26,229 nucleotides of DNA, taken from a virus. The stretch's first letter is position 1, and each line of letters starts with the position of its first letter. The stretch lies in the IMG/VR virus record IMGVR_UViG_3300038786_000076, positions 1 to 26,229 of that record; one strand, given 5' to 3'. A program made the position numbers and the translations under genes. The notes under the pieces are model-generated. The model had not been told where the DNA came from. It searched no databases and was given only the letters and a program-made list of their open reading frames with translations. Shown in pieces: positions 1,462 through 4,969 of this stretch.

Positions 1462-2232
1462 ATGAGAAAATTAACACTTGAACAGATGTACAAAATTATC
1501 AACGATGCGCCGATGGATGCCAGATGTTACTTGTTGAAAGAAGCGACTAAACCGGTTTCATATTCAGACATGACAGCGACATCATCAACTATGTGGACTA
1601 GCCTACAGGCATTACAATCAGAAATAAACACCAGAGAAAAAGTGAATGCTATTGTTGAGGCTGTGAATTACTACGCAGACGGTCAATTTAAGTGCGCAGG
1701 GTATGTTGCTGAAGGAATAAATACACAGGCAACAACAACATTTAATAACAAACCAAGTGAGCATCTTTTTAATATTATCTGTAAAAATAACGAATACAAT
1801 CAGTGCATCAAAGAAATGTCTGAAGCCGCTTGGATGAATCAAGACGAACTAGGAGAGCCGCAAAGCTACGAAGCGCACAAACAAGCTGTTAAGGATATGG
1901 AGGAAGATGACAAAGCTGCTGGGTATATATTAACAAGCGGAGATCTGATGTCTCATCTCAGACGGTTTGAAAGCGGAGTTACATTTTACACAAAGAAGAA
2001 TCATGTTGAATACGTTAAAATTAACAAAGCCAGTGACATTGCGCGTTATATCTTCCGGTTATTTACTCTCCAAGAATCGCAAGAAGTAAAGGCGGCAAAA
2101 GAGCGCGAAGAAAAGGCTAAAGCTTTGTTTGAGCTGGCCTGTGATAATTTGTGGGGGCGCTCCAGCGATCAATCAAAAGAGTCATTCTGTAAATTAGTTG
2201 ATGCAGGGGCACAAATTCCAAAAGGATATTAG
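1462..2232 (+). CDS. Hypothetical protein, 256 aa
   Basis: This is the largest gene of the left cluster and I do not recognise it. It is soluble and mostly helical by residue pattern. It has an acidic middle (MEEDDKAAGY), a segment around residues 165-195 that could be a small sheet (GVTFYTKKNHVEYVKI), and a charged helical stretch (VKAAKEREEKAKALFEL) near the C-terminus that could form a coiled coil. The ATG at 1462 follows AAAGGAATAAGACA. A 31-codon gene begins 3 bases after its stop. Its position just before terS fits an accessory or packaging-related role, but nothing in the sequence proves either. Confidence 0.75.
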   Translation: MRKLTLEQMYKIINDAPMDARCYLLKEATKPVSYSDMTATSSTMWTSLQALQSEINTREKVNAIVEAVNYYADGQFKCAGYVAEGINTQATTTFNNKPSEHLFNIICKNNEYNQCIKEMSEAAWMNQDELGEPQSYEAHKQAVKDMEEDDKAAGYILTSGDLMSHLRRFESGVTFYTKKNHVEYVKINKASDIARYIFRLFTLQESQEVKAAKEREEKAKALFELACDNLWGRSSDQSKESFCKLVDAGAQIPKGY

Positions 2233-2234
2233 TA

Positions 2235-2330
2235 ATGATAGCCAGGATATTATCAACGCTAATTTTTATCGGTGGATTTATTTTTATAGGTGCGTTTTTG
2301 TTGCGGTACGGGCTTAATGTGATTGCATAA
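2235..2330 (+). CDS. Tiny single-pass membrane protein, 31 aa
   Basis: ATG 2235 to TAA 2328-2330 encodes 31 residues. Nearly all of the span from residue 4 to 22 is hydrophobic (RILSTLIFIGGFIFIGAFLL), followed by an arginine, so the likely form is one membrane helix. The preceding gene ends 3 bases upstream, and AAAGGA at 2221-2226 can serve as ribosome site. Small single-helix proteins are frequent in phages and rarely annotated. The role is unknown; a partner of the two-helix protein at 1284 in lysis is one possibility. Confidence 0.5.
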   Translation: MIARILSTLIFIGGFIFIGAFLLRYGLNVIA

Positions 2331-2338
2331 TATTAACT

Positions 2339-2363
2339 AAAGGCTGCTTAATTGTAGCCTTTT
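2339..2363 (+). terminator. Hairpin terminator after the left gene cluster
   Basis: AAAGGCT at 2339-2345 pairs with AGCCTTT at 2356-2362 across a 10-base loop, followed by only one more T and then GC. It is a weak intrinsic-terminator shape placed just after the stop at 2330. Its right arm overlaps the -35 region of the next promoter. Confidence 0.45.
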
Positions 2364-2380
2364 GCTATTAAGAGTATAAT
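2352..2380 (+). promoter_or_regulatory. Sigma70-like promoter for the packaging operon
   Basis: TTGTAG at 2352-2357 and a perfect TATAAT at 2375-2380 are separated by 17 bases. The terS start lies 36 bases after the -10 box. The position directly after a terminator-like hairpin and before terS supports a real promoter for terS, terL, portal and MuF. Confidence 0.6.
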
Positions 2381-2415
2381 GGTGTAACGGCAGAGCCAAT
2401 ATGAGAGGTCACAGA

Positions 2416-2880
2416 GTGGCTACAGGAAGACCAACAAAGTATAAAGCTGAATACTGCAAACAGGCAGAGAAGCTATGTGATAAAGGATTCATAGACACTG
2501 ATATAGCAGATTTCTTTGCTGTTGATGTTGCAACTATTAATCGGTGGAAACTCAAATACCCTATATTTTGCGAGTCCCTAAAAAAGGGCAAACGACACTC
2601 TGATAGTAAAGTTGTTGATTCACTTTACAAGCGAGCGCTTGGGTATGAATTCGTGGAAACAAAAGAAGAAAGTGGTGATAGCGGTAAAAAGACAACTATC
2701 ACAACAAGGCAGATGGCAGGGGATACAACTGCACAAATATTCTGGCTTAAAAATAGAGATCCTGAGAATTGGCGCAACAATCCAGAGCCAGCAGATGAAG
2801 GAACAAGCGGCGATCCATTGACGATTAATTTCAATGTTTCCGATCCAGTTGGAAAGGTTAAGGTGGTCAGGGGTGAATGA
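2416..2880 (+). CDS. terS: Terminase small subunit
   Basis: TerS recognises phage DNA and delivers it to the large subunit for packaging. The protein begins VATGRPTKY and carries a helix-turn-helix (about residues 20-45: KGFIDTDIADFFAVDVATINRWK), then a helical region, and ends with the DPENWRNN motif typical of this terminase small-subunit group. I place the start at GTG 2416 because GAGAGG lies 7 bases upstream and because relatives begin close to the ATGRPTKY motif. An in-frame ATG at 2401 has no comparable ribosome site. The product is about 154 residues. It overlaps the start of terL by 8 bases if terL starts at GTG 2873. Confidence 0.88.
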   Translation: MATGRPTKYKAEYCKQAEKLCDKGFIDTDIADFFAVDVATINRWKLKYPIFCESLKKGKRHSDSKVVDSLYKRALGYEFVETKEESGDSGKKTTITTRQMAGDTTAQIFWLKNRDPENWRNNPEPADEGTSGDPLTINFNVSDPVGKVKVVRGE

Positions 2881-4969
2881 TTTACGCCTAAGTGCGCCGC
2901 AGAATATATTCCTAAACGGACTTAATACAAAGTTTAGGGGTTATGTTGGTGGGTTCGGTTGTGTGCATCCAGAAACTAAGATACACACAGAATATGGGCT
3001 TATGCGTATTTGCGATATAGATCGTCCAATGCGCGTTTTAAGCTGGAATGAGAATAGTCAACAATTCCAGCTTTCTTTAACCGGGGGATCGTACCCAAAA
3101 GGAAAGGCGAATCTATTCCGAGTTGTAACGCAGCTAGGAGAATTTGTTGCATCCGAACATCACCGTTCTCTTTGCGCTGACGGTAAGTATCGACAAGTTG
3201 GCTCTCTTTGCGCTGGAGACGTGTTGAATTCATTCTCTCAATCCCAGCTTCAGACCAGCAAGGGACTTTTCCTGAAATCGTTGCCTTTAGGTGATCTGCA
3301 TTGCTCGAAAATACTCGAAGATTTGATGGGTGGTTATGCAGATGCAGCCCGTCAATATGGTCAACAACTTCTTCAGGGCGAAGGCTTCGACCTAGAGATT
3401 TTCCAGCAACAAGGCGATGCTCATAAATCGATCCTGACTTTCGACCATGATAACCATCAGGGCAAGGAGTTGTCACGTAGCCGTCTAAGTCTATTGATCT
3501 CCCACCTTTCCAAGACGAGTTATAAGCGCCTTTTCTCGCGCCCTGTGGAAGCCGAGGTAGATCAAACTTTGCCATCGTCTTCTGCACGTACTTGCTGTTG
3601 TCACCACAAAGCTCTGCAACTTGATGAGACGTGCGAGTTCCATCGCAAAGCACAGCAACAATCTTCTGTCGTTCGTTCATATTCATGCTCCTTATCCGAA
3701 ACCACCATATTATCAACAGAGAGGCTGAATTGCAAGTCGTCTTATTGGGATATGCAGGTTCTTGACACAAACAACTATGTGACCGAAGATGGATGTATTC
3801 ACCACAATAGCGGAAAAACTTTCGTTGGATGCTTGGACTTGATTAACTTCTTCGCAAAACACCCAGGCACAAGGCAGGGGTATTTCGGTCCAACTTATCC
3901 AGCAATAAGGGACATTTTTTACCCGACATTTAGTGAAGCTGCTGAAATGATGGGCTTTAGATGTGACATTAAAGAATCCAACAAAGAGGTTCACTTATAC
4001 AGGGGTCGCAAGTATTACGGCACTGTGATCTGTCGCTCAATGGATAATCCAAAGACAATAATCGGCTTTAAAATCTCAAGGGCTTTGTGTGATGAGTTAG
4101 ACGTACTCGACAAAGTAAAGGCTAGGCAGGCGTGGGATAAAATCATCGCTCGTATGCGACTTGTCATACCTGGTGAGCAAAACTCAATAGGCGTAACAAC
4201 TACACCTGAAGGGTTTAAGTTTGTTTATGAGCAATTCTATAAAAGCCCTACTGCGTCCTATTCAATGGTGCAGGCTTCGACGTATGAAAACGAGATCTAT
4301 TTGCCTCCTGATTACATATCATCTTTGCGTGAAACATACGACGAGAATTTGATTGATGCTTACCTAGATGGTGAGTTTGTTAACTTAACGGGTGGAACGG
4401 TATATAATCAGTATTCAAAATCTAATGAATCATTTGAAACCGTAACCGATAAAGACAATATTTTATATGTAGGAATGGATTTTAACGTTACTCAAATGGC
4501 GGCGTGTGTATTTGTTTATCGTGGTGATATTCCGCACTGTGTTGATGAATTTAGCGGTTTATACGATACCAGCGACATGATAGAAAATATTATAATGCGC
4601 TATCCAGACAAGAAGATAGTCGTTTACCCAGATGCAAGCGGAAAGAATAGAAAATCAAACGCAGCAGATGAAACGGACATACACTTGCTAAAAAGAGCAG
4701 GCTTTAAAGTTAAGGCTAAAGAAGCAAACCCAAGGGTTAAGACTCGCGTTAACTCAGTAAATGCGATGATGAAGAACGCAAAAGGTGAGCATAGGTTATT
4801 TGTCAATAAGATAAAATGCCCGGAAACTCACGACTGCTTAGAGCAGCAGATTTACAATGATATTGGCGAACCAGACAAGAAAGGCGGTAAGGATCATCAA
4901 AATGACGCCTTTGGATATTTCATAGCGTATGAACACGCGATCAAGAAAAAAGTAACGAGGGTTATATAA
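2873..4969 (+). CDS. terL: Terminase large subunit precursor interrupted by an intein
   Basis: TerL is the packaging motor ATPase and headful nuclease. The reading frame is 698 residues from GTG 2873, which has AAGGTGG 6 bases upstream; an in-frame ATG at 2834 lacks a ribosome site. Residues 1-29 end in GGFG, then a 283-residue intein follows, then SGKTFVG resumes. Joining the exteins gives GGFGSGKT, an intact Walker A, and a mature protein of about 415 residues, normal for this family. The C-extein has a Walker B-like ALCDELD, and nuclease-domain acidic residues in YVGMDF, YPDASG and DHQNDAFGY. The stop overlaps the portal start (TAATG). The insert is required to splice out, because it splits the ATP-binding loop. 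An HNH gene runs antisense inside the intein. Confidence 0.95.
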   Translation: MNDLRLSAPQNIFLNGLNTKFRGYVGGFGCVHPETKIHTEYGLMRICDIDRPMRVLSWNENSQQFQLSLTGGSYPKGKANLFRVVTQLGEFVASEHHRSLCADGKYRQVGSLCAGDVLNSFSQSQLQTSKGLFLKSLPLGDLHCSKILEDLMGGYADAARQYGQQLLQGEGFDLEIFQQQGDAHKSILTFDHDNHQGKELSRSRLSLLISHLSKTSYKRLFSRPVEAEVDQTLPSSSARTCCCHHKALQLDETCEFHRKAQQQSSVVRSYSCSLSETTILSTERLNCKSSYWDMQVLDTNNYVTEDGCIHHNSGKTFVGCLDLINFFAKHPGTRQGYFGPTYPAIRDIFYPTFSEAAEMMGFRCDIKESNKEVHLYRGRKYYGTVICRSMDNPKTIIGFKISRALCDELDVLDKVKARQAWDKIIARMRLVIPGEQNSIGVTTTPEGFKFVYEQFYKSPTASYSMVQASTYENEIYLPPDYISSLRETYDENLIDAYLDGEFVNLTGGTVYNQYSKSNESFETVTDKDNILYVGMDFNVTQMAACVFVYRGDIPHCVDEFSGLYDTSDMIENIIMRYPDKKIVVYPDASGKNRKSNAADETDIHLLKRAGFKVKAKEANPRVKTRVNSVNAMMKNAKGEHRLFVNKIKCPETHDCLEQQIYNDIGEPDKKGGKDHQNDAFGYFIAYEHAIKKKVTRVI
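3000..3680 (-). CDS. HNH homing endonuclease encoded antisense inside the TerL intein
   Basis: This 226-residue protein has the layout of phage homing endonucleases. A helix-turn-helix-like region lies at about residues 12-40 (TSHQVAELCGDNSKYVQKTM), a SSWKGG motif at 55-60, and the HNH core at 87-123: EHRLVAGKSLGRSL, then VVDHIDG with H108, then N116 and N120 in NHPSNLRV. The start is ATG 3680, because AAGGAG at 3688-3693 lies 7 bases upstream; an in-frame ATG at 3686 is too close to it, and the upstream frame to 3770 has no ribosome site. The gene lies wholly within the intein, opposite to terL. Codon position 1 of each frame faces position 1 of the other. It probably cuts intein-free terL at the Walker A site to drive homing; this is inferred, not shown. 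Confidence 0.9.
   Translation of the reverse strand: MNERQKIVAVLCDGTRTSHQVAELCGDNSKYVQKTMAKFDLPRLPQGARKGAYNSSWKGGRSIDLDGYVTTPCPDGYHGRKSGSIYEHRLVAGKSLGRSLRPEEVVDHIDGLHLHNHPSNLRVFSSNADHLKATISGKVPCWSEAGIERMNSTRLQRKESQLVDTYRQRKENGDVRMQQILLAALQLGIDSPFLLGTIPRLKKAGIVDYSHSSLKRALDDLYRKYA
3688..3735 (-). promoter_or_regulatory. Shine-Dalgarno and candidate promoter for the antisense HNH gene
   Basis: On the minus strand AAGGAG (3688-3693) lies 7 bases before ATG 3680, a nearly ideal ribosome site in a region that is also sense coding. Further upstream are TTGCAA (3730-3735) and GATAAT (3709-3714) with a short 15-base spacer; shifting the -10 to TAATAT gives a 17-base spacer. The ribosome site is convincing; the promoter is only a candidate. 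Confidence 0.5.

Follow-up and report, generated by a model that had tools for sequence, protein, structure and literature searches.

The large terminase (TerL) gene of the viral DNA described here is interrupted by an intein, and the intein coding sequence carries an HNH endonuclease gene on its opposite strand. About a hundred phages and prophages conserve this back-to-back layout, and both strands are under selection. Very probably, these elements form a mobile intein family in which an antisense gene, translated independently, supplies the homing endonuclease instead of a domain of the intein; splicing, expression, cleavage and homing are themselves inferred. The usual view is that an intein either retains its nuclease in frame, as a domain, or loses it, whereas a large family here uses an antisense gene. 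Within part of the DNA each strand specifies a folded domain of its own; natural examples of such sense/antisense dual coding are rare, and this one leaves a selection signature that can be measured.

Anatomy of the intein-bearing terL

The window, i.e. the whole stretch analyzed, comprises 26,229 nucleotides (positions 1 to 26,229 of IMG/VR virus record IMGVR_UViG_3300038786_000076). Its relevant features, with the evidence for each, are:

2401–2880, + strand: small terminase-like gene upstream of terL (ORF list; identity inferred from position and an HTH-like start)
2873–2959, + strand: TerL N-extein, its last residues being Walker A GGFG (translation; joined flanks)
2960–3808, + strand: intein, 283 aa, from C1 to HHN, with +1 Ser (translation, alignment, profile, Foldseek)
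2960–3244, + strand: Hint-N half of the splicing domain, residues 1–95 (AlphaFold pLDDT about 87–97 over residues 1–90)
3245–3691, + strand: sense linker, residues 96–244, mostly disordered in the model, carrying the antisense gene (pLDDT; divergence pattern)
3692–3808, + strand: Hint-C half, residues 245–283, blocks F and G (pLDDT 91–94; conserved YWDMQVLDTNNYV...HHN)
3809–4969, + strand: TerL C-extein, with the remaining ATPase and an RNase H-like nuclease (Pfam Terminase_6N, Terminase_6C)
3000–3680, − strand: HTH-HNH endonuclease gene, 226 aa (ORF, Pfam, phrog, alignment, AlphaFold)
3688–3693, − strand: AAGGAG Shine-Dalgarno sequence, 7 nt from the ATG at 3680
3288–3422, − strand: HNH catalytic core, H88, D107-H108, N116/N120, N127 and H130 (invariant columns; HNH_3 stretch 87–127)
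3003–3191, − strand: HNH C-terminal helical domain, residues 164–226, double-coded with Hint-N (pLDDT about 83–97; divergence reduced at every sense codon position)

Translation places an 849-nt insert within the TerL Walker A motif, GGFG^SGKT; the insert stays in frame throughout its 283 codons, with zero stops, and joining the flanks across it yields VGGFG^SGKTFV. The N-extein likely starts at GTG 2873, an alternative in-frame ATG lying at 2834. Three hallmarks of an intein are present, namely the junction residues, the Hint fold, and in-frame insertion with element-free homologues, while protein splicing itself is inferred. C1, H282 and N283 are invariant in the intein alignment, as are the splice-junction residues, and among solved structures the alignment profile matches the mini-inteins of DnaB and DnaX. 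Foldseek searches with the AlphaFold model of the intein returned DnaB and RecA mini-inteins (best E 4e-07, target TM mostly 0.72–0.87). The Pfam intein model gave a weak Hint match on the sense frame, scoring under the family cut-off. The model is confident for residues 1–90 and 245–283, with pLDDT below 50 for residues 98–112 and 142–240.

The HNH gene lies entirely within the intein coding sequence, and its product is a full-length match to phrog_10730 (E=1.5e-68) and also matches Pfam HNH_3, just below the family cut-off (7.9e-05). Its catalytic residues are invariant across 47 HNH sequences. The AlphaFold model is confident (mean pLDDT 87.7), including the C-terminal domain antisense to Hint-N, and its N-terminal helices are of the HTH type; the top PDB match, I-HmuI, is weak and not significant (E=0.16). 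The protein thus combines the HNH core and the DNA-binding extension expected of an HNH homing endonuclease, while cleavage of an element-free allele is inferred only, and indirectly, from precise insertion and sporadic distribution. Shine-Dalgarno sequences precede family HNH starts in 78 of 101 genes, vs. 35 of 468 control windows, whereas a promoter scan of the HNH strand gave two matches against a mean of 1.7 expected, none better than chance. A longer HNH variant (about 270–330 aa), with a second N-terminal HTH-like segment, occupies nearly all of a ∼336-codon intein at nine loci (L084, L088, L109, L128, L133, L137, L158, L161 and L168).

The initial annotation, made from sequence alone, had placed the intein and the antisense gene at these positions and had described the HNH core, N-terminal HTH, AAGGAG site and open 283-residue sense frame, all of which held. 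Its view that an antisense HNH gene within the intein takes the place of an in-frame domain also held, with one refinement: the gene is not confined to the linker, as its C-terminal ∼80 codons are antisense to the Hint-N splicing domain (about 3003–3244).

Selection on both strands

The coordinates dictate how the two frames pair: sense codon position 1 faces antisense position 1, sense position 2 faces antisense position 3, and sense position 3 faces antisense position 2. With this pairing each frame keeps its own wobble, yet every wobble change alters the other protein. Synonymous shuffling of the window's HNH codons predicted 10 sense stops and the reciprocal shuffle 8.5 stops, with 0 observed in both cases. 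Across 40 sequences, the HNH-codon shuffle predicted 2–11 sense stops per intein, none of which contained any, and the reciprocal shuffle agrees. Taken one by one, some members that are short or rich in GC did not reach significance in the stop test (L017, P=0.10; L023, P=0.22; L148, P=0.09). Free-standing HNHs (phiH, Psa21 and L033) contain 2–12 stops in every opposite frame, so an open opposite frame does not come with HNHs of this family in general. A chance antisense ORF is excluded by the codon shuffles together with conservation.

Divergence at sense codon positions 1/2/3, measured in 13 independent pairs, was 0.10/0.04/0.43 at the N-terminal sense-only end and 0.12/0.04/0.34 at the C-terminal one. 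In the linker (0.12/0.335/0.10) the peak falls at position 2, the antisense wobble, and antisense amino-acid changes are well under expectation (e.g. 13 vs. 38). The Hint-N overlap is slow at all positions (0.07/0.11/0.10); its position 3 differs from that of the single-coded ends with a Fisher P of about 7e-37, with the caveat that position 3 divergence averages over pairs of very different age. This pattern indicates that the linker is governed by the HNH frame and the ends by the sense frame, with both frames in control of Hint-N.

Conservation, distribution and mobility of the element

An overlapping antisense HNH was present in 125 of the 128 distinct intein ORFs found via the intein C-terminal block, the other three all being truncated at contig ends, and the same sense/antisense double frame occurs in more than 100 distinct loci, with HNHs falling into 94 clusters at 90% identity. 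Scanned for separately, the HNH and the intein turned up in the same contigs, each on the strand opposite the other. When the HNH alignment served as the query, 80 further viral loci were detected, along with loci in the bacterial genomes of Enterobacter cloacae, Acinetobacter and others, which rules out an HNH unique to the window's phage. Well-scoring HNHs were nearly all antisense inside an ORF of about 550–1,100 aa with an intein profile; only distant ones were free-standing, and plasmids yielded distant HNH matches only. Intein family members without an HNH were restricted to the contig-truncated cases and shortened copies. A lack of conservation of the antisense frame in related inteins had been named at the outset as a finding that would refute the arrangement; conservation is instead overwhelming, as judged by the ORF counts, the shuffles and the divergence.

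Isolated phages with the element include seven Pectobacterium phages of the Ymer group, Dickeya phage Setonix and Pseudoalteromonas phage PHS3; prophage carriers include E. coli and Enterobacter. The host genes encode TerLs of several families, one RecD-like helicase and one SNF2-like helicase. Insertion is always in P-loop codons and nearly always at the bond G^SGK(S/T), the variants being GANRVGK^TS in one TerL group (L023), FGPAG^TGKT in the RecD-like helicase (L031) and AD^CGLGKT in the SNF2-like helicase (L150). Every subfamily tested uses one and the same antisense phase of the three possible, which suggests, by inference, a single origin of the arrangement.

A natural empty site is provided by the TerL of E. 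coli AR436, with the prophage of E. coli MEI003 as the filled counterpart. The flanks are 96% identical over 150 nt upstream and 92% identical over 300 nt downstream, and MEI003 differs by exactly 1008 nt inserted at GFG^SGKT. Natural intein-free TerLs thus confirm the insertion point given in the initial annotation. Among relatives of the window TerL, 48 sites are empty and 3 occupied (10 more could not be scored), and 779 of 780 E. coli records match the extein only. HNHs from TerLs with at most 25% identity to one another, or with no BLAST match at all, are still 54–59% identical; such high HNH identity where TerLs barely align indicates mobility, and these incongruent identities, together with the other host genes, support horizontal spread of the HNH with its element. 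Pairwise identities, not groups, serve as evidence here, as single-linkage grouping lumped nearly all exteins into one group. Shortened inteins (146–226 aa) with the HNH partial or lost also occur, including a 146-aa mini-intein of the same family that lacks most of the antisense HNH (L223, ORF 1748–3766, + strand); such partial-loss forms are as the homing-degeneration cycle predicts.

At L156 (IMGVR_UViG_3300037189_007819) the antisense HNH is present and the TerL sense frame is interrupted inside the intein to give two ORFs, through either a true break or a sequencing error. The TerL ORFs of L034, L144 and L149 carry a second, different intein-like insert further along (profile start near residues 768, 707 and 506, respectively). 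An uncultured 484-kb phage record (L071, 2001–2282; LR756508.1) contains an intein-like N-terminal block, with 29% identity, within a long unidentified ORF.

Proposed mechanism, rival explanations and related systems

On the sense strand, TerL would be made as one long precursor, from which the two Hint halves are predicted to excise the intein, restoring the P-loop. The HTH-HNH nuclease would come from the antisense gene, which has a Shine-Dalgarno sequence to itself; selection on the frame and on the Shine-Dalgarno sequence is shown, and translation is inferred. In mixed infections the nuclease may cut intein-free terL at its P-loop codons, and repair of the cut would copy the entire intein with both frames; we propose that a homing cut would fall near GGTTCGGT^AGCGGAAAA in the intein-free P-loop. 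Cutting and copying are inferences, drawn from the sporadic occurrence of the element, its exact insertion and its horizontal spread. Under this model, linker sequence would be set by selection on the nuclease, an unbroken TerL merely barring sense stops there, while in Hint-N the same base pairs would constrain both proteins.

The analysis establishes the anatomy and conservation of the element, selection on both frames, the existence of empty sites and the incongruence of HNH and TerL identities. A bolder reading, towards which the balance tips only slightly, is that these elements represent a widespread class of phage inteins with nuclease and splicing domain genetically entangled, the HNH C-terminal domain and Hint-N sharing base pairs on opposite strands. 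If so, nuclease loss without damage to splicing would become harder, and the family offers a test of whether entanglement stabilizes a selfish element against nuclease loss. Nuclease dose would also be set apart from TerL expression, and antisense transcription could modulate TerL. The separation of nuclease expression from host protein splicing, suggested in the initial annotation, remains an inference, as do homing activity and splicing.

Four alternatives deserve consideration. HNH proteins encoded beside terminase genes can act in packaging (a role mentioned in PMC11855218), and most host genes of the element are TerLs, so that the antisense HNH might be a packaging cofactor, as in HK97-like phages, merely housed in the intein. 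This is most improbable: nearly all relatives of the window TerL lack both intein and HNH, as the site and record counts above show, the intein with its antisense HNH is also found in RecD-like and SNF2-like helicases, and the element moves between unrelated TerLs. Equally hard to sustain is the proposal that the nuclease spreads the intein by cutting elsewhere, at a neighboring or generic site, in the manner of intronless homing. HTH-HNH enzymes are often loose in specificity, and no cleavage site is known; however, invariable insertion in P-loop codons, nearly always at the bond G^SGK, fits a site-specific target.

The remaining alternatives deny function to one of the two frames. Were the sense frame a dead passenger, with terL interrupted by an HNH gene and now an accidentally open pseudogene, the RefSeq marking of MEI003 terL as a pseudogene with an incomplete product and the annotation of only the C-extein half in PHS3 would be expected. 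This possibility is virtually eliminated by the absence of sense stops from every intein although 2–11 are expected, by normal sense constraint on the single-coded Hint ends (position 3 fastest), by the invariant splice-junction residues and by the presence of the intein in isolated, infecting phages (Ymer genus, PHS3). Conversely, the antisense frame could be a relic of a formerly active HNH, conserved as a by-product of sense constraint, and truncated HNH copies do exist (L017, L141, L237, L239 and others). We consider this very improbable as well, given that sense position 2, the antisense wobble, is where linker sequences differ, that antisense amino-acid changes stay below expectation (13 vs. 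38 in the example above), and that the catalytic residues are invariant in all 47 sequences.

The preferred reading, an intein with an antisense homing endonuclease gene, can be set against several known systems. The dCTP deaminase intein of cyanophage CL131, with its in-frame HNH_3 domain (PMC6293099), shares the Hint splicing fold, an HNH-type nuclease in intein DNA and a sporadic distribution; unlike such full-length inteins, that of the window has its nuclease as a separate opposite-strand gene with its own ribosome site, partly double-coded with Hint-N. A classical full-length intein with in-frame endonuclease was rejected for the window on the weak Hint match of its sense frame, the mostly disordered linker and the HNH on the opposite strand. 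Split inteins with free-standing endonuclease genes between their halves likewise make the nuclease apart from the splicing protein, but the window intein is contiguous, a single open frame of 283 codons that rules out a split intein, and its nuclease overlaps in antisense. Mycobacteriophage TerL inteins (PMC5050341) likewise reside in the TerL ATPase domain and are mobile between phages; that report does not mention an antisense gene. In nuclear rDNA group I introns (PMC9548176), antisense homing endonuclease genes also lie opposite a self-splicing element, and the question of transcription is common to both, but the host there splices as RNA and the gene occupies a peripheral loop, so that no overlapping protein frame exists.

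Along with the intron genes, the nearest published case is the ShiLan domain, an HNH hidden out of frame within a methylase of a mycobacteriophage (PMC11855218, 2025). It likewise uses a frame other than the open host frame, but it is encoded on the host gene's own strand, and the authors of that report found neither an intein or intron nor a ribosome site. An insertion of this type, on the same strand and without a splicing domain, is ruled out for the window by the opposite strand and the Hint domain. The hidden HNH of Mycobacterium phage ShiLan (L077, about 3001–3219) is a distant relative of the window's antisense HNH. No earlier description of antisense HNH genes in inteins was found in the 5.39 million open-access papers searched (subscription journals and preprints were outside the search, leaving priority uncertain). 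A published family, which would also have refuted the novelty claimed in the initial annotation, was thus not encountered, and its view that this arrangement is not known as an established class is supported within the same limit. The paper on the Ymer genus (PMC11445585) mentions neither intein nor HNH.

An intein with an antisense HNH accounts for TerL genes that are annotated as broken or hypothetical in public genomes. In E. coli MEI003 (L168, 1921–4208; NZ_CP071263.1), RefSeq lists the TerL as "incomplete, missing N-terminus" and the HNH separately (WP_077828224.1), while the locus reads as an intact intein-bearing TerL. In PHS3 (L068, KX912252.1) annotation is limited to the HNH and the C-terminal portion of TerL; in Ymer (L069, OP748252.2) the HNH is missing from the annotation and the whole TerL with its intein appears as a hypothetical protein.
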